A stretch of 64,000 nucleotides of DNA from Pectobacterium polonicum (GTDB lineage: Bacteria > Pseudomonadota > Gammaproteobacteria > Enterobacterales > Enterobacteriaceae): the NCBI RefSeq assembly GCF_005497185.1, contig NZ_RJTN01000005.1, positions 130,953 through 194,952 on the forward strand, written 5' to 3'. Under the pieces are notes generated by a model. It was not told the DNA's origin, made no database searches, and saw nothing but the letters and a program-made list of their open reading frames with translations. Each line of letters opens with the position of its first letter. The first letter of the stretch is position 1. This document shows, piece after piece, positions 1 to 9,217 of this stretch. The position numbers and the translations under genes are program-made.

Positions 1-408
1 GTTATTCCCCTACCCCCGCAGGCATTAGCTATTCTGGACGCCATGAAGCCCATCAGCGGACACCGTGAATACCTGTTTCCTTCCAGTAAAGACCCTAAGC
101 AGCCGATGAACAGCCAGACCGCTAACGCCGCATTGCGCCGTATGGGTTACAAAGGTGTGCTGGTGTCTCATGGCCTGCGCGCCATCTTCAGCACCGCCGC
201 CAATGAAGAAGGCTTCCCGCCAGATGTGATTGAAGCAGCCCTCGCCCACGTAGACACCAACGAAGTGCGCCGCGCCTATAACCGATCCACTTATCTGGAA
301 CAGCGCAAAATATTGATGTGCTGGTGGGGGGAATTTGTTGAAACAGCCGCAACGGGAAAAGTGATGGCGTCGGAAGGAGCCAGAGGTTTACGCGCAGTTA
401 ATGGCTGA
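1..408 (+). CDS. int: Tyrosine site-specific integrase, C-terminal part (int1)
   Basis: This is the last 135 residues of a P4-type tyrosine recombinase that inserts and excises an integrative element. The window starts in frame inside the gene, so the 5' end is missing only because of the window edge. The catalytic HGLRA box lies at about nt 172 and the nucleophile region AYNRSTY at about nt 277. It is almost the same protein as the C-terminus of the integrase at 7604-8788 (for example KILMCW here, KVLMCW there), while the DNA differs at scattered, mostly silent positions. The two are therefore related but not recent exact duplicates. It lies upstream of alpA and a primase, as expected for a satellite element. 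Confidence 0.93.
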   Translation, partial: VIPLPPQALAILDAMKPISGHREYLFPSSKDPKQPMNSQTANAALRRMGYKGVLVSHGLRAIFSTAANEEGFPPDVIEAALAHVDTNEVRRAYNRSTYLEQRKILMCWWGEFVETAATGKVMASEGARGLRAVNG

Positions 409-1644: not shown

Positions 1645-1804
1645 TAAAACTCCGCTGGAACAGGAAGAACTGATCGATCAGTGCCGTGCGCTGGCTTATG
1701 CCATCGTGGAGTTAAGGGAGCCGCAAGCAAAAGAGATCCTGATGTTCATTCTTGCCGAACGGCTTGATGCGCTCCACCGTGCGCCGGAGGACGAGGCAGC
1801 ATGA
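1637..1804 (+). CDS. Conserved small P4-like protein, 55 aa
   Basis: A 55-residue acidic, helical protein beginning MFDKTPLEQEELIDQCRALA and ending APEDEAA. It starts inside the end of the Icd-like gene and its stop overlaps the primase start in an ATGA arrangement (1801-1804), so the three genes are translationally coupled. The same small gene is commonly found just before the alpha-type primase in P4-like islands. No domain or function is recognised. A longer open frame on this strand from 977 runs through it, but the upstream part overlaps two better-supported genes and is not coding. Confidence 0.75.
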   Translation: MFDKTPLEQEELIDQCRALAYAIVELREPQAKEILMFILAERLDALHRAPEDEAA

Positions 1805-4407
1805 GCAACACGTTTATTCAAGACGTGCGGACAAAAGCCAACGGCCATTGGGAGGGGATTTTGCAGCGGTTAGGCATCCCAACCAATCGGCAGGAAAGTG
1901 AATGTCCCAACTGTGGCGGGAATACCCGCTACCGTTTTGACGATAAAGAAGGTCGTGGCACCTATTTTTGTTCTCACTGCGGCGCAGGAACCGGACTGGA
2001 TCTGGTGATGAAAGTGAATAAGTGCGATGCGTGGCAAGCAGCGGAACGGGTCGCCGAGGTGCTGGCGCTTCCGTTGCCAGTCGTTCCCCCCGCCAGTGAA
2101 AAGCCTGATCATCGTCTGATTGCCGAGCGGGTAAATTCGCTGGTGGCGAAAGCGGTATCGGGTCAATCTGACTATCTGCTGAATAAGGGGCTGCAACGCC
2201 CCTCACTACTGCTGGATGATGGTTCCCTGTTGCTGGCGCTGCAAAACATGAACGGCACCACCACCGGCGCACAGCTCATCAAACCTAATGGCGAGAAAAA
2301 GCTGATTGCCGGTAGCCGCAAGAAAGGCGCATTCATTCCCGTTAGTACCCTACCTGAACACGCGGACACGGTGATCATTGCCGAAGGTTACGCCACAGCA
2401 ATTACGGCATCGTTACTGATACAGGGTGTCGCTATCAGCGCGTTAGATAGCGGGAATCTGATTCACATTGCACGATCTTGCCGTGCTGTCTGGCCGGACG
2501 CCAAAATCATCCTTGCTGCGGATAACGACAGCAAATCCGATGGTAGTAACACTGGAAAAATCGCGGCTGAAAAAGCGGCACAGGCGGTAAACGGTTGGGT
2601 GGCGCTCCCGCCGACAACTGAAAAAGCCGACTGGAATGATTACTACCAGCAACATGGCGCGGCGGTATCCATATCGGCCTTTGCCGCCTCACTTTATCAG
2701 CCAGGACAAAAACCGCTGCCGTCTTCCAATTCCCCCTTAAAACCTTACGCAGACATTCGTCATGGCGGGCTGTATTGGGTAGAGCCGAAGACTGACCATG
2801 ACAGCGGCGACATTATCGAGCGTGAAAGCTGGCTGTCTGATCCTATTACGGTGGCGGGGATTGGATCGGATGAGTCAGAGCGTTATCTGGTTCTAAGTTG
2901 GACGCCAAGCGGTGAAAGCCAGCCCCGTACCGAAGCGATTCCAATGCGAGATATTGGCGAACGTGAAGGCTGGGCGCGATTACGTGCGGGTGGATTGGCA
3001 GTCACGGCCAAAGGCGGGTTACGGGCAATACTGGCCGATCACTTGTGTCGCAGTCATGCAGGTTGTCGCTGGTCAATCGCCAGCGCGACCGGCTGGCAGC
3101 ATGGCGCTTACCTGATGCCGGACGGTTCTGTTATCGGCACACCGAGCATTCCTGTCTTGTTCAACGGTAAATCGGGTGCCGCCAGAGGTTATGCCACCAG
3201 CGGAACGGCGCAAAGCTGGTGCGAAAACGTCGCAGCGCTGGCACAGGGGAATCCCTCCATGATGTTGGGGATCGCCTGCGCCTTTGCTGCGCCGCTCATT
3301 GGGCTGGTAAACGCGGACGGGTTCGGCGTCCATCTGTTTGGCGGTTCCTCTGCGGGTAAAACCACAACCGGCAATATCGCCTCTTCTGTCTATGGTGATC
3401 CTAACACGCTTAAACTAACGTGGTATTCCACCGCACTAGGACTGGTGAACGAAGCCGCCGCCCACAATGACGGCTTTATGCCGCTGGATGAAATCGGGCA
3501 AGGCAGCAATCGCAAAGCCGTGGCCGATGCCGCCTATGCGTTGTTTAACGGCGTGGGTAAAATTCAGGGAGCCAGAGAAGGCGGCAACCGAGAGCTAAAA
3601 CGCTGGCGGGCAATGGCGTTCAGTACCGGCGAGATCGATCTGGAAAGCTATATCCGCGCTGACGGTGGACGGGTAAATGCTGGTCAATTGGTGCGCCTGC
3701 TGAATGTCCCGATCACCAAAGCGACGGTATTTCATAGCTATCAGGATGGCAAAGCCCATGCTGACGCGATCCGTGATGCCAGCAACGCGCATTATGGCGC
3801 GGTTGGCCGGGCGTGGATTGTTCACCTCTCCAGCCAGAAAGAAAACGCGCTGACAACCTACCGCGAAACAGAGCGGCGCTGGTTGTCACTGTTACCCGAT
3901 GATGCCAGCGAACAAGTGCGGCGTGTAGCATCACGTTTTGCTGTATTGGAAACCGCTTTATTACTTTCGGCCTCTTTTACTGGCTGGACGGTTCAGGAAT
4001 GCCACGATGCGTTACAGCATAGCTTCTATGCCTGGGTAAATGAATTTGGCATGGGCAACCGTGAGGCCAAAGCCTGGGTAGAACAGGCCGACACCTTTTT
4101 GCACCAGTTTGGCTATAGCCGTTATTTACCGCATCCCAATCCTGATCCGCGTGATTTACCCATCAAGGATTTGGCAGGGTATCGGGTGAAAAAGCCAGGA
4201 GCCGATACGCTGGTGTTTCACACCTTCCCCGCCGTATTCAATAACGAGATTGCCACTGGTGCCAATGCCGCTGCGTTTGCGCAGGTGCTGGCCGATGCCG
4301 GAATGCTGGACAAACCCGCCAAAGGCATTACACGTAAATCACTGCGCATTGACGGTAAGCAGCCGCGCTTTGTGGTGCTCATGACGCTCGACGACGAGGA
4401 AGAGTAA
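1801..4407 (+). CDS. P4 alpha-like primase/helicase with DUF927 domain
   Basis: This 868-residue replication protein drives autonomous replication of the satellite. Residues about 37-62 form a zinc finger with the pattern CPNCGG...YFCSHCG, as in P4 alpha primase. Residues about 190-300 are a Toprim-like primase domain with VIIAEGYATAI and a later acidic LAADND motif. The C-terminal half is a DUF927-type helicase ATPase with Walker A FGGSSAGKTTT at about residue 516 and PLDEIGQG as the Walker B-like motif. Length and domain order fit the Toprim/DUF927 primase family of P4-like elements. It is the last gene of the coupled operon starting at 1444. The iteron cluster directly downstream is its likely binding region. 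Confidence 0.93.
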   Translation: MSNTFIQDVRTKANGHWEGILQRLGIPTNRQESECPNCGGNTRYRFDDKEGRGTYFCSHCGAGTGLDLVMKVNKCDAWQAAERVAEVLALPLPVVPPASEKPDHRLIAERVNSLVAKAVSGQSDYLLNKGLQRPSLLLDDGSLLLALQNMNGTTTGAQLIKPNGEKKLIAGSRKKGAFIPVSTLPEHADTVIIAEGYATAITASLLIQGVAISALDSGNLIHIARSCRAVWPDAKIILAADNDSKSDGSNTGKIAAEKAAQAVNGWVALPPTTEKADWNDYYQQHGAAVSISAFAASLYQPGQKPLPSSNSPLKPYADIRHGGLYWVEPKTDHDSGDIIERESWLSDPITVAGIGSDESERYLVLSWTPSGESQPRTEAIPMRDIGEREGWARLRAGGLAVTAKGGLRAILADHLCRSHAGCRWSIASATGWQHGAYLMPDGSVIGTPSIPVLFNGKSGAARGYATSGTAQSWCENVAALAQGNPSMMLGIACAFAAPLIGLVNADGFGVHLFGGSSAGKTTTGNIASSVYGDPNTLKLTWYSTALGLVNEAAAHNDGFMPLDEIGQGSNRKAVADAAYALFNGVGKIQGAREGGNRELKRWRAMAFSTGEIDLESYIRADGGRVNAGQLVRLLNVPITKATVFHSYQDGKAHADAIRDASNAHYGAVGRAWIVHLSSQKENALTTYRETERRWLSLLPDDASEQVRRVASRFAVLETALLLSASFTGWTVQECHDALQHSFYAWVNEFGMGNREAKAWVEQADTFLHQFGYSRYLPHPNPDPRDLPIKDLAGYRVKKPGADTLVFHTFPAVFNNEIATGANAAAFAQVLADAGMLDKPAKGITRKSLRIDGKQPRFVVLMTLDDEEE

Positions 4408-4429
4408 ATCTCGCGTAAGGTAAAATAAG

Positions 4430-4684
4430 GTCGGTTCGGTAGGTTCAGTCGGTTCATTATTTTAATACATTGATTTATGGCTATTTTTATTTGAATAGTG
4501 AACCGACTCTGAACCGACTTTAGCCATTTTGAACCGACCTAACCAAATGCCTCTTTTCTGGCTTGCTTGATGAACCGACTTTCACACCGCGTGAACCTAC
4601 CCCTAGGTCGGTTCAATTCTGAAAGTAATCACTTTATCTATCAACAAGTTGACTACGTGAACCGACTGAACCTACCGAACCGAC
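4430..4684. repeat. Iteron cluster, candidate replication origin (crr-like)
   Basis: The 8-mer GAACCGAC occurs nine times within 255 bases: forward at 4500, 4511, 4531, 4572, 4659 and 4677, and inverted (GTCGGTTC) at 4430, 4448 and 4607. A one-base variant, GAACCTAC, occurs at 4593 and 4668 and inverted at 4439. Most copies are in close groups spaced by 9 to 20 bases and separated by AT-rich stretches. P4 alpha protein binds direct repeats at ori and crr, and this array lies 23 bases after an alpha-like primase gene, so it is a good candidate origin. The iteron sequence itself is not the known P4 one. Confidence 0.8.
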
Positions 4685-4810
4685 CCACTTTTGCTTATCT
4701 ATAAGCATTTGCGCACACCATAATCATGATGGGTTGAACCATTGCCAGCGTGAAAGTGCGCAAAACGAAACTGAGTGGTTACGGAAAAATTCGCAATGTG
4801 GTTCACAGTT

Positions 4811-4852: not shown

Positions 4853-5185
4853 GCTGCAACCCGTACCACGCCTCATTTTATTCAATTTGAAATCAATTTT
4901 TTGGTCGGTACGCATGTATCGAAATGCTAAGGTTTTTTGGGATGTCGGAACGGCGGGAAACGGTGTGGGGAGTGAGGCTAAAATAGTAAACCATGGGCAA
5001 CCTCAATCTATGACCAAAAAATTACTGAGTTTAGGTTCTGCTGAGAGTTTCTTTAGGTGTATTTGCCTCGGCTAGGTCTAACCATAGGCTACTGCCAGAC
5101 GCAAGATATTGCTGACACAACTGTGTTTATGATAAAGAGATAGCTCAACACTTAGTGGATGAATAAAAATATAGATAACCACTAA
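4853..5185. other. Non-coding stretch between origin region and unknown cassette
   Basis: No convincing gene was seen. An open frame of 113 codons crosses 4734-5075, but it runs through the repeat array, lacks a ribosome site and has no recognisable domain. Confidence 0.5.
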
Positions 5186-5214
5186 CAAAAAAGGCTCCTC
5201 AAGGGAACCTCTTT
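5186..5214 (-). terminator. Rho-independent terminator of the 162-aa/39-aa operon
   Basis: Read on the minus strand, AAAGAGGTTCC and GGAGCCTTTTTT form an 11-bp stem allowing two G-U pairs, with a CTTGA loop and a U-run. It begins about 18 bases after the 39-aa gene stop. Confidence 0.75.
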
Positions 5215-5231
5215 CTTAATAAGAAAACACA

Positions 5232-5351
5232 TCAGATCGGTTTTGCTACGATTTTCCCAGCTTGCTCAGCTTTCTTTTTAGCAATAAGAAAACGCTGAAG
5301 CATCTCATTTTTCTGTGCTTTGATTGCATCGTAGTCAATATTCAGGTTCAT
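5232..5351 (-). CDS. Unknown 39-aa protein downstream of the 162-aa gene
   Basis: A small gene encoding MNLNIDYDAIKAQKNEML followed by a basic, helical tail ending KIVAKPI. It starts four bases after the stop of the 162-aa gene on the same strand and is followed by a terminator, so the two probably form one operon. About a quarter of the residues are Lys or Arg and the middle is predicted helical. I do not recognise the family. It could be a small partner or modulator of the upstream protein, judged only from the tight spacing. Confidence 0.6.
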   Translation of the reverse strand: MNLNIDYDAIKAQKNEMLQRFLIAKKKAEQAGKIVAKPI

Positions 5352-5355
5352 TTTC

Positions 5356-5844
5356 TCAGTTTTCCGTTCGTATAACATAACAAGCCCCTTCTATATGAGA
5401 TGCAAGGTTCTTGGATTTGGAATACCTAAGCACTAATCTAGTATAAATTTTTCTTAGGGATTCACTGTACGCTTGAAAAGTCAAAATTTGTATGGATTCA
5501 GTTTCAGCTATCTTTAAAATGATGTCAACCAACGTAGTGTAAAGATAACGAGCTTCTACCGCAGTTAGATCTGGCGCACCGGGCGGCTTATCAAACATCG
5601 TATCACATTCTTCGTTATCTTCAGCATCTACATTGTAGAAGCTAACAACGCTAACAGTAAGTGTGGCGAGTTCATCACCATAAAGATCTGTCAAAAGTTT
5701 GCTGTTGCCTTCTTTACAAAAGACTAAACGGAGGGTTATTTGCCTAGTAACATCGCCAGAAAAGGTAAAGATCACATCCGTATATCTATACACTTCAAAA
5801 CCTTGCAGTTCATTATGCTTGAACTTGTATGAGTTACCCGCCAT
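5356..5844 (-). CDS. Unknown 162-aa cargo protein
   Basis: A soluble, unrecognised protein beginning MAGNSYKFKHNELQGF, without signal peptide or membrane segment. The first half is rich in beta-forming residues (FEVYRYTDVIFTFSG), then there is an acidic loop (NVDAEDNEECD), then a helical C-terminal part with SESLRKIYTRLVLRYSKSK. That last pattern loosely recalls the C-terminus of small phage-encoded proteins with an acetyltransferase-like fold, but no catalytic motif is visible and I would not assign it. It is more AT-rich than the replication genes and stands opposite to them, followed by a 39-aa gene. Its position next to a satellite origin marks it as cargo. Confidence 0.65.
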   Translation of the reverse strand: MAGNSYKFKHNELQGFEVYRYTDVIFTFSGDVTRQITLRLVFCKEGNSKLLTDLYGDELATLTVSVVSFYNVDAEDNEECDTMFDKPPGAPDLTAVEARYLYTTLVDIILKIAETESIQILTFQAYSESLRKIYTRLVLRYSKSKNLASHIEGACYVIRTEN

Positions 5845-6102
5845 CCAAACGTCCCACTATAAGATTATGACCGATATCTTACAGTAAAATTTATATAAGC
5901 ATTAGATATCAGAGAGAATTTTAAGGCATTTTTCAAATCTAACATTGAGAGTACTGAGCTATTCGAAACATACTAAATGAGCATTGAATCACAGACCAGA
6001 AGACATGATCCTCAACTACTTCACTGTTGGCTGGATGACGCCCACTTTTGCGGTAAGTTCAACTGGTCGATCACTTGTTTCCCTATCTGCCAACAACTAC
6101 AA

Positions 6103-6137: not shown

Positions 6138-6383
6138 ATGGGCGTCATGTCCGTTCGCTTAAATGATGAAACAACCGCGCAACTTGATGCGCTGGCTAAA
6201 GCCACGGGGCGTACCCGCTCTTTTCTGGCCGGGCAAGCCATTGAAGACTACCTTGCGCGGGAAGCCTGGCAGATAGCAGAGATCGAGCAAGCTATAAAAG
6301 AGGCTGATGCGGGTGATTTTGTCTCATCAGATGAGATGAACAATCTCTTTAAAAAATTAGGTACGGCAAGACATGGAAATTAA
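6138..6383 (+). CDS. parD: ParD/CopG-type ribbon-helix-helix antitoxin
   Basis: An 81-residue antitoxin. The N-terminus SVRLNDETTAQLDALAKATG is a typical ribbon-helix-helix DNA-binding segment, followed by TRSFLAGQAIEDYL. The C-terminal part (EIEQAIKEADAGDFVS) is the acidic region that usually wraps around the toxin. A GAGG ribosome site lies before the ATG. The gene overlaps the toxin gene by 11 bases, a standard coupling for such pairs. Decayed copies of this gene lie at 8950-9105 and 11261-11320, so the module has been duplicated or inserted repeatedly in this region. Confidence 0.92.
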   Translation: MGVMSVRLNDETTAQLDALAKATGRTRSFLAGQAIEDYLAREAWQIAEIEQAIKEADAGDFVSSDEMNNLFKKLGTARHGN

Positions 6384-6657
6384 ATGGCTGCGTAAAGCCG
6401 CGGCCAATTTGGAAGCCGAGTACCTCTATATCGCGCAGGACGATCCACAAGCTGCCAGCCAATTCGTAGATGAAGTCCAAAGGTTGACGGAATTACTACC
6501 GCAACAGCCAGCAATGGGAAGGCCAGGCCGTGTGCCAGGGACGCGTGAGCTGGTGTTAACGCACTATCCCTACATCATCCCCTACCGTGTGAAAGATAAC
6601 ATGCTCCAGATTCTGCGCATCTTTCATACGCACAGACGTTTACCGTCAAAATGGTGA
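6373..6657 (+). CDS. parE: ParE/RelE-family toxin
   Basis: A 94-residue toxin of the RelE/ParE superfamily. It begins MEIKWLRKAAANLEAEYLYI, has the helical hairpin with QAASQFVDEVQRLTELLPQQP, then GRPGRVPGTRELVLTHYPY and the end LQILRIFHTHRRLP. The conserved GR..GTRELV and IHHTRR-like C-terminal signatures are present (the latter here FHTHRR), so the gene looks intact. ParE toxins inhibit gyrase and RelE toxins cut ribosome-bound mRNA; the sequence does not decide between them, though the ParD-like partner favours ParE. It is translationally coupled to the antitoxin. Confidence 0.92.
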   Translation: MEIKWLRKAAANLEAEYLYIAQDDPQAASQFVDEVQRLTELLPQQPAMGRPGRVPGTRELVLTHYPYIIPYRVKDNMLQILRIFHTHRRLPSKW

Positions 6658-6703: not shown

Positions 6704-7054
6704 ATGAAAGACAACAAAAAACACAACCAACAATCAAGATCATCTAGCTGGGGAGGAAAACGCACCGGTGCAGGCGCTCCAATTGGTAACACCAATGCAG
6801 TGAAACATGGGGAACGCAGCCGCCAGGCATTCTTTCCTTTGGCGGGTGATGATGGGCGATTCACGCCGTTGCAATTACTGCGTGTAAGAAACCTACTCCT
6901 TGCTGAACGTGTCGGCGAGTTGATGCACAGATCTCTTTCTTTGGGTACAGCCGAGTGGCGCGAGTTTATGTTGCTCGATGGGATTTTATGGCAACACACC
7001 CGAAAAATGATGGTATTAGAGCTTCGCCAGGCAAAAGCAAACCATGCATCATAA
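6704..7054 (+). CDS. Phage-related 116-aa protein with GAPxGNxNAxKHG motif
   Basis: A 116-residue basic protein. Near residue 20 it carries WGGKRTGAGAPIGNTNAVKHG, cut here to the key residues GAGAPIGNTNAVKHG, a motif seen in the N-terminal region of many phage and plasmid proteins, including small terminase-like proteins. The rest is helical (LLRVRNLLLAERVGELM and AEWREFMLLDGILW) and unassigned. It starts 46 bases after the toxin gene and may be in the same transcript. A decayed copy of its middle part lies at 9131-9217, downstream of the parD remnant, so this gene travels with the toxin-antitoxin pair. Confidence 0.65.
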   Translation: MKDNKKHNQQSRSSSWGGKRTGAGAPIGNTNAVKHGERSRQAFFPLAGDDGRFTPLQLLRVRNLLLAERVGELMHRSLSLGTAEWREFMLLDGILWQHTRKMMVLELRQAKANHAS

Positions 7055-7603: not shown

Positions 7604-8788
7604 TTGTCGCTACATGATGGTGGCGGGCTGCTATTGTTCGTCAAACCTTCCGGCACAAAGACATGGCGTTTTCGCTATTACCACCCACAGACTAAAAAGC
7701 GCACTACGTTGACGTTTGGCAGCTATCCGGCAATTTCTTTAGCTGATGCCAGACAAATGCGGGAAGCAGCCAAAGCTCTCTTAGAAAAAAGCATCGATCC
7801 ACAGTTCCACCAGCAACAGCAGCGCGAACAAGAACAAGCCATCAACCTGAACACGTTCGCCAAAGTTTCCGCCGACTGGTACGAAGTGAAAAAGTCACAA
7901 CCACTGGCCGAGGACACCATTAAAGATATCTGGCGCTCGTTGGAAAAATACGTCTTCCCGTTCATCGGAACCTTACCGATCACCCAGCTTACCGCTCGTC
8001 ACTTCATCACCGCGCTGGAACCGATACAGGCCAGCGGTAAATTGGAAACCGTCAAGCGGGTAAGCCAGAGAATTAACGAGGTGATGGATTATGCGGTTAA
8101 CTCTGGGCTGATTCCCGCGAACCCCGCCGCCAAGATCCGCAAAGCCTTTCAGACGCCGGTGAAAACCCATATGCCGACCATTCGGCCAGAGGCATTACCT
8201 GGCTTAATGAAAACGCTATCGGTCGCCAGCATTGAGTTACAGACCCGCTTATTGATTGAATGGCAGCTACTCACCGTTACCCGCCCTGCCGAAGCCGCTG
8301 AAACCCGCTGGAGCGAGATAAACCTTACAGATAACACCTGGACGATCCCCGCTGGCCGTATGAAGATGCGTCGTGATCACATTATTCCCCTGCCCCCACA
8401 GGCATTAGCTATTCTGGACGCCATGAAGCCCATCAGCGGACACCGTGAATACCTGTTTCCATCCAGTAAAGATCCCAAGCAGCCGATGAACAGCCAAACC
8501 GCTAACGCCGCATTGCGCCGTATGGGGTACAAAGGCGTACTGGTATCCCACGGCCTACGCGCCATCTTCAGCACCGCCGCCAATGAAGAAGGCTTCCCGC
8601 CAGATGTGATCGAAGCTGCCCTCGCCCACGTAGACACCAACGAAGTGCGCCGCGCCTACAACCGTTCCACCTATCTGGAACAGCGTAAAGTCTTGATGTG
8701 CTGGTGGGGGGAATTTGTCGAAACAGCCGCAACGGGGAAAGTGATGGCATCGGAAGGAGCCAGAGGTTTACGCGTCGCCAACGGCTGA
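7604..8788 (+). CDS. int: Tyrosine integrase int2, start codon apparently lost
   Basis: A P4-type tyrosine recombinase with the N-terminal arm-binding domain, a central SAM-like core-binding domain and a catalytic domain with TRPAEAAETRW, HGLRAIFST and AYNRSTY. In this family the protein normally begins about 15 residues earlier with a segment like LTNTEVKAAKAIDKELSL. That segment is present in frame from 7559, but no ATG, GTG or TTG precedes it before the stop at 7526. The first usable codon is TTG at 7604, which would remove the arm-binding start. It may therefore be a pseudogene or truncated by the recombination that formed this junction. The catalytic domain is intact and nearly identical to int1. 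Confidence 0.85.
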   Translation: MSLHDGGGLLLFVKPSGTKTWRFRYYHPQTKKRTTLTFGSYPAISLADARQMREAAKALLEKSIDPQFHQQQQREQEQAINLNTFAKVSADWYEVKKSQPLAEDTIKDIWRSLEKYVFPFIGTLPITQLTARHFITALEPIQASGKLETVKRVSQRINEVMDYAVNSGLIPANPAAKIRKAFQTPVKTHMPTIRPEALPGLMKTLSVASIELQTRLLIEWQLLTVTRPAEAAETRWSEINLTDNTWTIPAGRMKMRRDHIIPLPPQALAILDAMKPISGHREYLFPSSKDPKQPMNSQTANAALRRMGYKGVLVSHGLRAIFSTAANEEGFPPDVIEAALAHVDTNEVRRAYNRSTYLEQRKVLMCWWGEFVETAATGKVMASEGARGLRVANG

Positions 8789-8949: not shown

Positions 8950-9217
8950 GGACAGAACATTGAAGGCTATGTTGCGTGCGCAGCAATTCAGACAAATTTT
9001 AGAGATAGAGCAAGCTATTAAAGAATCAGAGGCCGGTGATTTTGTCTCACCAGATGAAATGTGCAACCTGTTTAAAAAGTTAGGTACGGCAAGAGATCGA
9101 AATTAAATGGCTACGTCACGAAACAGTCCGTTGGCAACACCAATAGGTAGAACAGCAACTACCGGGCAATCTTTTCTTTGGCTGGTGATAATGAGCAATT
9201 CGCGCCACTGGAATGAC
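8950..9217 (+). pseudogene. Decayed parD and 116-aa gene copy downstream of int2
   Basis: 8950-9105 aligns with the second half of parD (6237-6390): both share AAGCTAT..AA, GTGATTTTGTCTCA and TTAGGTACGGCAAGA. A net insertion near 8985 shifts the frame. Directly after it about 20 bases match the start of parE, and 9131-9217 match the 116-aa gene (6777-6875), with most of parE deleted. This shows the second element once carried the same cargo as the first. No gene was seen in the rest of 8789-9298. Confidence 0.75.

Follow-up and report, generated by a model that had tools for sequence, protein, structure and literature searches.

A cassette of two overlapping genes in Pectobacterium polonicum is, with high confidence, a mobile and expressed moron. 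It lies in a 64,000-nucleotide (nt) stretch of the genome (contig NZ_RJTN01000005.1, positions 130,953–194,952; hereafter the window), next to the primase gene and origin of a P4-like element. Its large and small genes belong to families that PHROG lists as being of unknown function, phrog_28788 and phrog_2140, the second of which is that of T4 a-gt.2. An anti-phage role is, on balance, the most likely reading of the cassette. The unit links three things: the moron reported as strongest in an SSU5-type phage-plasmid, genes that P2- and P4-type elements carry as cargo, and an orphan gene of T4. With two small genes the functions of a-gt.2 and phrog_28788 become directly testable.

A preliminary description of the region had proposed an independent unit on the strand opposite the replication genes, in which a 162-amino-acid (aa) and a 39-aa protein, neither recognised, were encoded four bases apart and followed by their own terminator. 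Its placement holds: the large open reading frame (ORF) is open throughout, lies on the strand opposite to the primase gene and is followed by a small ORF, the two adjoining the P4-type primase and origin as a separate unit. Its internal layout has to be corrected. The small gene has 48 codons and, rather than following after a gap, overlaps the large gene by 23 nt, starting at an internal ATG with a Shine–Dalgarno-like site ahead; the codon taken as the start of the 39-aa protein is an internal methionine of the small gene, and 9 of 16 pairs have no methionine there. The revised start is shared among relatives, with ATG in 15 of 16 pairs and TTG in one (L024), GGAG or GGGG shortly 5′ of it in all 15 pairs for which upstream sequence was compared, and overlaps of 23–44 nt across the 16 pairs (29 nt in L022). 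A co-occurrence search, which the preliminary description had suggested, found the two genes recurring together with the overlap kept, at large-protein identities of 34–91%.

With the overlap excluded, pairwise omega was 0.08–0.20 for the large gene (6 unsaturated of 8 pairs) and 0.06–0.15 for the small gene (4 unsaturated of 8 pairs); judging from these sequence comparisons, purifying selection acts on both. Residues G153 and Y156 of the large protein are conserved, but because their codons coincide with the ribosome site and start of the small gene, this may partly reflect nucleotide constraint. At the end of the unit, a hairpin with a U-run folds at −16.2 kcal/mol (z −3.24), in keeping with the proposed terminator, and DNA similarity to contigs L004 and L009 extends through it.

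The preliminary description had considered that conservation might be limited to one strain. We found the large gene in 56 of 72,556 plasmid records (E ≤ 1e-5), in 8 of 392 sampled genomes of the family and in 1 of 50,697 phage records, that of Cyrano. The small gene matched 58 plasmid records (E ≤ 0.01), overlapping the large gene in 56 (compared by eye); the remaining two, both from Proteus mirabilis, share an identical internal deletion of ~330 bp in the large gene and keep the small gene open. Small-gene matches occurred in 10 of 384 sampled family genomes, one of them spurious, and two genomes (G280 and G103) keep only remnants of the large gene; the spurious match, in G034, spans 23 residues in a frame with a stop and was dropped. 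Among 5,426 complete Escherichia coli genomes, the window type occurs in 1 and the Cyrano type in 9, all on plasmids. In wider samples, the A1 profile matched 2 of 394 genomes of the order and 1 of 274 of the class (the source genome is counted in both). The order sample also gave a partial match (E = 5.1e-7), a remote 161-aa relative (L041:1281–1932, minus strand) with an overlapping 64-aa ORF downstream, either a partner swap or chance. As this ORF matches no small family, the locus was not counted as a pair.

The cassette occurs in several different settings. On P2-like contigs it is flanked by gpA and the portal gene (L004, L005 and L007; L006 has the portal side), and a divergent, Cyrano-type version occupies the same P2-like slot in L067. 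The corresponding gpA–gpQ interval of P2 is a described anti-phage hotspot (PMC9122126). Carriers that are SSU5-like phage-plasmids comprise the pHCM2 type (L002 and L008; we take pHCM2 to be SSU5-like), L013 and the Cyrano type (L003, L036 and L037), and in these the cassette adjoins integrase and repressor homologues; Cyrano itself has been described as SSU5-like (PMC9928086). In two myophage-like prophages (L009 and L025) the cassette is on the tail-fibre side, and an E. coli plasmid, p7_33_46A-3, also carries it. Four chromosomal copies have no recognised phage gene beside them (neighbours named by eye): Atlantibacter has it between glyA and an MFS gene, Proteus beside crcB, Chimaeribacter next to an idi-like gene, and G203 between peptidase and sodC-like genes. 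A P4-like context was found for this one element only. When 3–4 kb of P2-like and phage-plasmid carriers were compared, only the ~0.7-kb cassette, including the terminator, was shared, and this holds for both divergent versions.

Two sets of contigs show features near the cassette boundaries. Starting at the left end and including the cassette, L010 and L014 are 99% identical to L009 as far as position 6869; as they diverge beyond it, a junction lies ~260 bp past the small gene. In L024, direct repeats of ~97 bp (7734–7828 and 8676–8772; at 90% identity, their core partly palindromic) bracket the bare cassette of P. mirabilis and are possibly an ERIC-like repeat.

Expression from a dormant element was found for the Cyrano homologue only. 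In LF82, CYRAN_43, the homologue of the large gene, was 723-fold above the local prophage background (PMC9928086, Table 1); called hypothetical there, it is the highest listed Cyrano gene and second in that table after hokD. Because the Cyrano record has no separate annotation of the small ORF, the figure may cover both genes. Position and expression together favour a moron or defence role.

Beyond its PHROG family (E = 4.3e-24), the large protein gave nothing significant in Pfam, NCBIfam or PADLOC searches, and neither protein matched a family in PADLOC v2.0.0 (2023; later systems lie outside it). Its predicted fold is GNAT-like, with moderate scores, and GNAT toxins are among its fold neighbours. 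The acetyl-CoA loop motif of GNAT proteins is [RQ]xxGx[GA]; none of 17 large proteins has it. Instead, 15 of the 17 carry F-x-[KR]-P-[PE]-[GD]-[AS] in the loop preceding a long helix (L022 differs and L025 is a fragment). Ten matches in a viral structure library at E ≤ 0.001 (best 3.0e-6) include unnamed phage proteins and domains of long proteins, and no function was obtained from them. Candidate similarities to VirC2 (E = 0.035, 13.9 bits against a cut-off of 25) and, in a sequence search of solved structures, to KIF20A (E = 0.028) were dismissed, and we treat the kinship of the remote L022 protein with DUF6934 (E = 0.052 and 0.065) as a lead only.

GNAT toxin–antitoxin pairs consist of small genes lying side by side, often on mobile DNA, with an antitoxin gene of RHH/DUF1778 type upstream of the toxin gene. 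The cassette resembles the described examples TacAT, KacAT, AtaRT and GmvAT (PMC9177977): its large protein is like the toxins in size and in predicted overall fold, and its two genes are likewise small and adjacent. It differs in that the large gene comes first with the small gene downstream, no RHH/DUF1778-type partner was found, and the large protein lacks the P-loop motif and any detected sequence similarity. On the features tested, the cassette is outside the GNAT toxin–antitoxin family.

The small protein is basic and half-helical, with one predicted helix (residues 16–39). It matches phrog_2140 with E = 9e-11, and in a T4 record the ORF for a-gt.2 has the same PHROG assignment. An hhalign comparison of the small family with six T4-like a-gt.2 proteins, four of which have a C-terminal extension, scored 98.3% (E = 2.5e-14); conversely, the only match of an a-gt.2 profile in the 4.8-Mb source genome was the small gene of the cassette (E = 1.1e-13). 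The cassette pairs phrog_28788 with phrog_2140, whereas no large-gene partner was detectable in the T4-like phages that carry a-gt.2. The a-gt.2 gene is frequent among T4-like phages. Searches of Pfam and PHROG gave no RHH match for the small protein; DUF5486 (PF17588) reached 24.6 bits, under its curated cut-off of 27, and an oxidoreductase found by sequence search of solved structures (E = 0.12) was dismissed. Apart from one of the weaker PHROG matches of the small protein, phrog_17354, labelled head maturation protease (E = 1.4e-5), neither protein could be placed in a known phage family of structural or regulatory type. A literature search, in which phrog_28788 was not itself a term, found nothing on the function of DUF6934, DUF5486 or a-gt.2 among the matches listed; names of accessions and loci led to a single paper, the one on the LF82 transcriptome. 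An a-gt.2 relative in OM386655.1 (23577–23747) stands under an anti-restriction nuclease annotation and is perhaps mislabelled.

From the pairing, the overlap and the fold, we infer that the large protein is the effector and the small protein its partner. In the mechanism that we propose, the GNAT-like large protein would act as effector, and the small protein would bind it and either restrain or arm it. Infection by a phage would disturb the balance between the two, and the stand-alone a-gt.2 of T4-like phages would target the same partner, in the simplest case as an antidote. T4 Dmd is an antitoxin mimic encoded by a phage. The anti-DarT protein of a Vibrio phage is another (PMC11481870), and a-gt.2, which is homologous to the module's small member and stands alone in a lytic phage, could by analogy work alike. 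That lytic phages carry such a relative by itself is compatible with its being an antidote or a trigger, and also with a host target common to both proteins. We regard it as an even call that the ~0.7-kb moron, expressed from a dormant element, protects the host cell and the element from other phages. An effector-plus-inhibitor mechanism with a-gt.2 as the antidote is a tentative proposal. More tentative still is the fullest version, an undescribed two-component anti-phage system in which a GNAT-like effector without the acetyl-CoA loop is matched by T4 a-gt.2 as antagonist or trigger; if true, a-gt.2 would thereby gain, as far as we found, its first proposed function.

The transcription is so strong that a very potent free toxin is disfavoured, which leaves a well-balanced pair or exclusion without toxicity. 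Against a transcription unit of its own, a search of the cassette strand for sigma-70-like promoters found none, and a consensus terminator scan did not list the hairpin, leaving the proposed terminator supported in its folding and unlisted by the scan.

The P2-like cassettes of L004 and L067 share with old/tin and the other P2 gpA–gpQ systems (PMC9122126) their position between gpA and the portal gene; unlike these systems, the cassette has no similarity to a PADLOC family, and we found no published phage test of it. Such cargo slots, of P2 and P4 type, fit defence as well as or better than addiction, in which a large toxin and a small antitoxin, their stoichiometry set by the overlap, would maintain the element. 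The overlap of the two genes would suit such a module, as would the GNAT toxins among the fold neighbours and the occurrence on plasmids and phage-plasmids, in elements that hold other toxin–antitoxin pairs. In all 4 lineages seen with a single-gene break, moreover, it is the large gene that is broken (both genes are damaged in L052). We rejected this polarity as proof of a toxin and antitoxin, the large gene being 3.4 times longer, so that length alone gives ~0.35. The large-first order and non-RHH partner differ from GNAT pairs, the acetyl-CoA loop is missing, and the bare chromosomal copies have no element to maintain. We consider addiction unlikely.

We assign a similarly low probability to a non-toxic moron for superinfection exclusion or host benefit, in which the large protein would directly block a phage or host process, with the small protein as its co-factor, the sort of protein that T4-like phages too would direct at a host target. 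The very strong expression in the lysogen (Cyrano homologue; PMC9928086) and the conservation of both genes agree with it, and the frequency of a-gt.2 in T4-like phages suggests a host target; however, there is no evidence of a target or phenotype, and a shared host target alone leaves the tight pairing of large and small genes unexplained. That the strong transcript is chiefly a 3′-end regulatory RNA with its terminator, the ORFs being secondary, is very improbable: the 723-fold transcription (PMC9928086) and the hairpin would accord with it, as would Rfam matches to STnc560 (E = 0.031 and 0.019), STnc390 and Atu_C8, but these reach 22.6, 18.1 and 18.7 bits against gathering thresholds of 55, 50 and 50, the two alignments shown depend on AU-rich sequence and the terminator hairpin, and omega of both ORFs is far below 1. 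Equally remote is a phage-plasmid unit that served lysogeny control or the integrase and was captured by other elements. This would explain the adjoining repressor and integrase in SSU5-like elements, but searches of P2-like, tail-end and chromosomal loci turned up no homologue of the repressor or integrase of pHCM2, and none was seen beside the chromosomal sites read.

Table 1 Features of the cassette and its host element (window coordinates)
Feature	Position	Strand	Basis
Large gene, 162 aa, phrog_28788 family, GNAT-like predicted fold	5356..5844	minus	ORF, PHROG match, fold comparison
Small gene, 48 aa, T4 a-gt.2 (phrog_2140) family, 23-nt overlap with large gene	5232..5378	minus	ORF, PHROG, hhalign
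Shine–Dalgarno-like AAGGGG of small gene, within large gene	5385..5390	minus	Position derived by hand
Terminator-like hairpin and U-run at end of unit	5187..5210	minus	Folding, DNA similarity
Extent of mobile module: DNA common to P2-like phage contig L004 (84%, 719 columns)	5182..5898	minus	DNA alignment
P4-type primase-helicase of host element	1801..4407	+	phrog_1139 E 1.2e-150; DUF927, Toprim_3, Zn_Ribbon_Prim
Iterons and inverted repeats (TGAACCGAC) adjoining primase gene, origin/crr-like	4422..4692
Cargo slot of P4-like element	5015..6095		Flanks kept in three close relatives, contents differ
CopG-type antitoxin and ParE-family toxin at slot border	6138..6657	+	RHH_1 2.7e-6, ParE_toxin 6.5e-19

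The label of satellite given to the element in the preliminary description is borne out in part. Like P4-like satellites, the element has a P4-type primase, iterons, a tRNA-linked integrase (tRNA-Pro(GGG) and the integrase lie immediately upstream of the window, in L042) and a variable cargo slot (Table 1). Unlike them, it has no delta-type activator; the only Ogr_Delta match of the genome is on another contig, C36. A search for Psu gave no match, and the control genomes were silent as well. The described P4 hotspot lies between psu and int (PMC9122126), whereas the slot here lies between the origin and the parDE-type pair.

Relatives of the primase occur in 35 of 295 genomes, three of which (G241, G151 and G184) hold the same element, with primases 94–96% identical. 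Of five related elements considered, G003 and G155 (primase 66–67%) were omitted owing to too little alignment around the slot. DNA of the three close relatives tracks the window to position 4958, 4988 or 5014 and resumes at 6096–6098. Because the same flanks enclose different genes in each, we conclude that the cassette fills a cargo slot of the element. In G241 the slot holds an overlapping pair of 257 and 140 aa (L105:5482–6662, minus strand) that lacks both a PADLOC match and a Pfam match above cut-off and is a candidate for a further system. G151 has a 341-aa DUF5677 protein (E = 1.1e-33; L106:3692–4717, minus strand). In G184 a 305-aa protein (L107:3555–4472, minus strand) is followed by transposase-like ORFs (labelled by eye); it has weak matches to HSDR_N in Pfam (22.7 bits against a cut-off of 25.1, 9.8e-5) and to type IIG restriction in PADLOC (9.6e-6). 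G203 and G213 have both a related primase and the large gene, but the large gene is located elsewhere.

The element is flanked by two integrase genes in tandem, whose C-termini are nearly identical (window 43–408 and 7604–8788; L042:11177–12361). The second tandem integrase is without its N-terminus, and a further relB-like fragment lies at 8960–9106; the arrangement suggests a second copy of the element that has collapsed.

Two further genes lie close to P2-like cassettes. In L067, the neighbour is a 276-aa protein (3545–4375, minus strand) with a weak endonuclease VII/HNH match below cut-off. In L004, the same gpA–portal slot also holds a 269-aa gene of unknown function (7704–8513, plus strand; phrog_3630, E = 1.7e-70).
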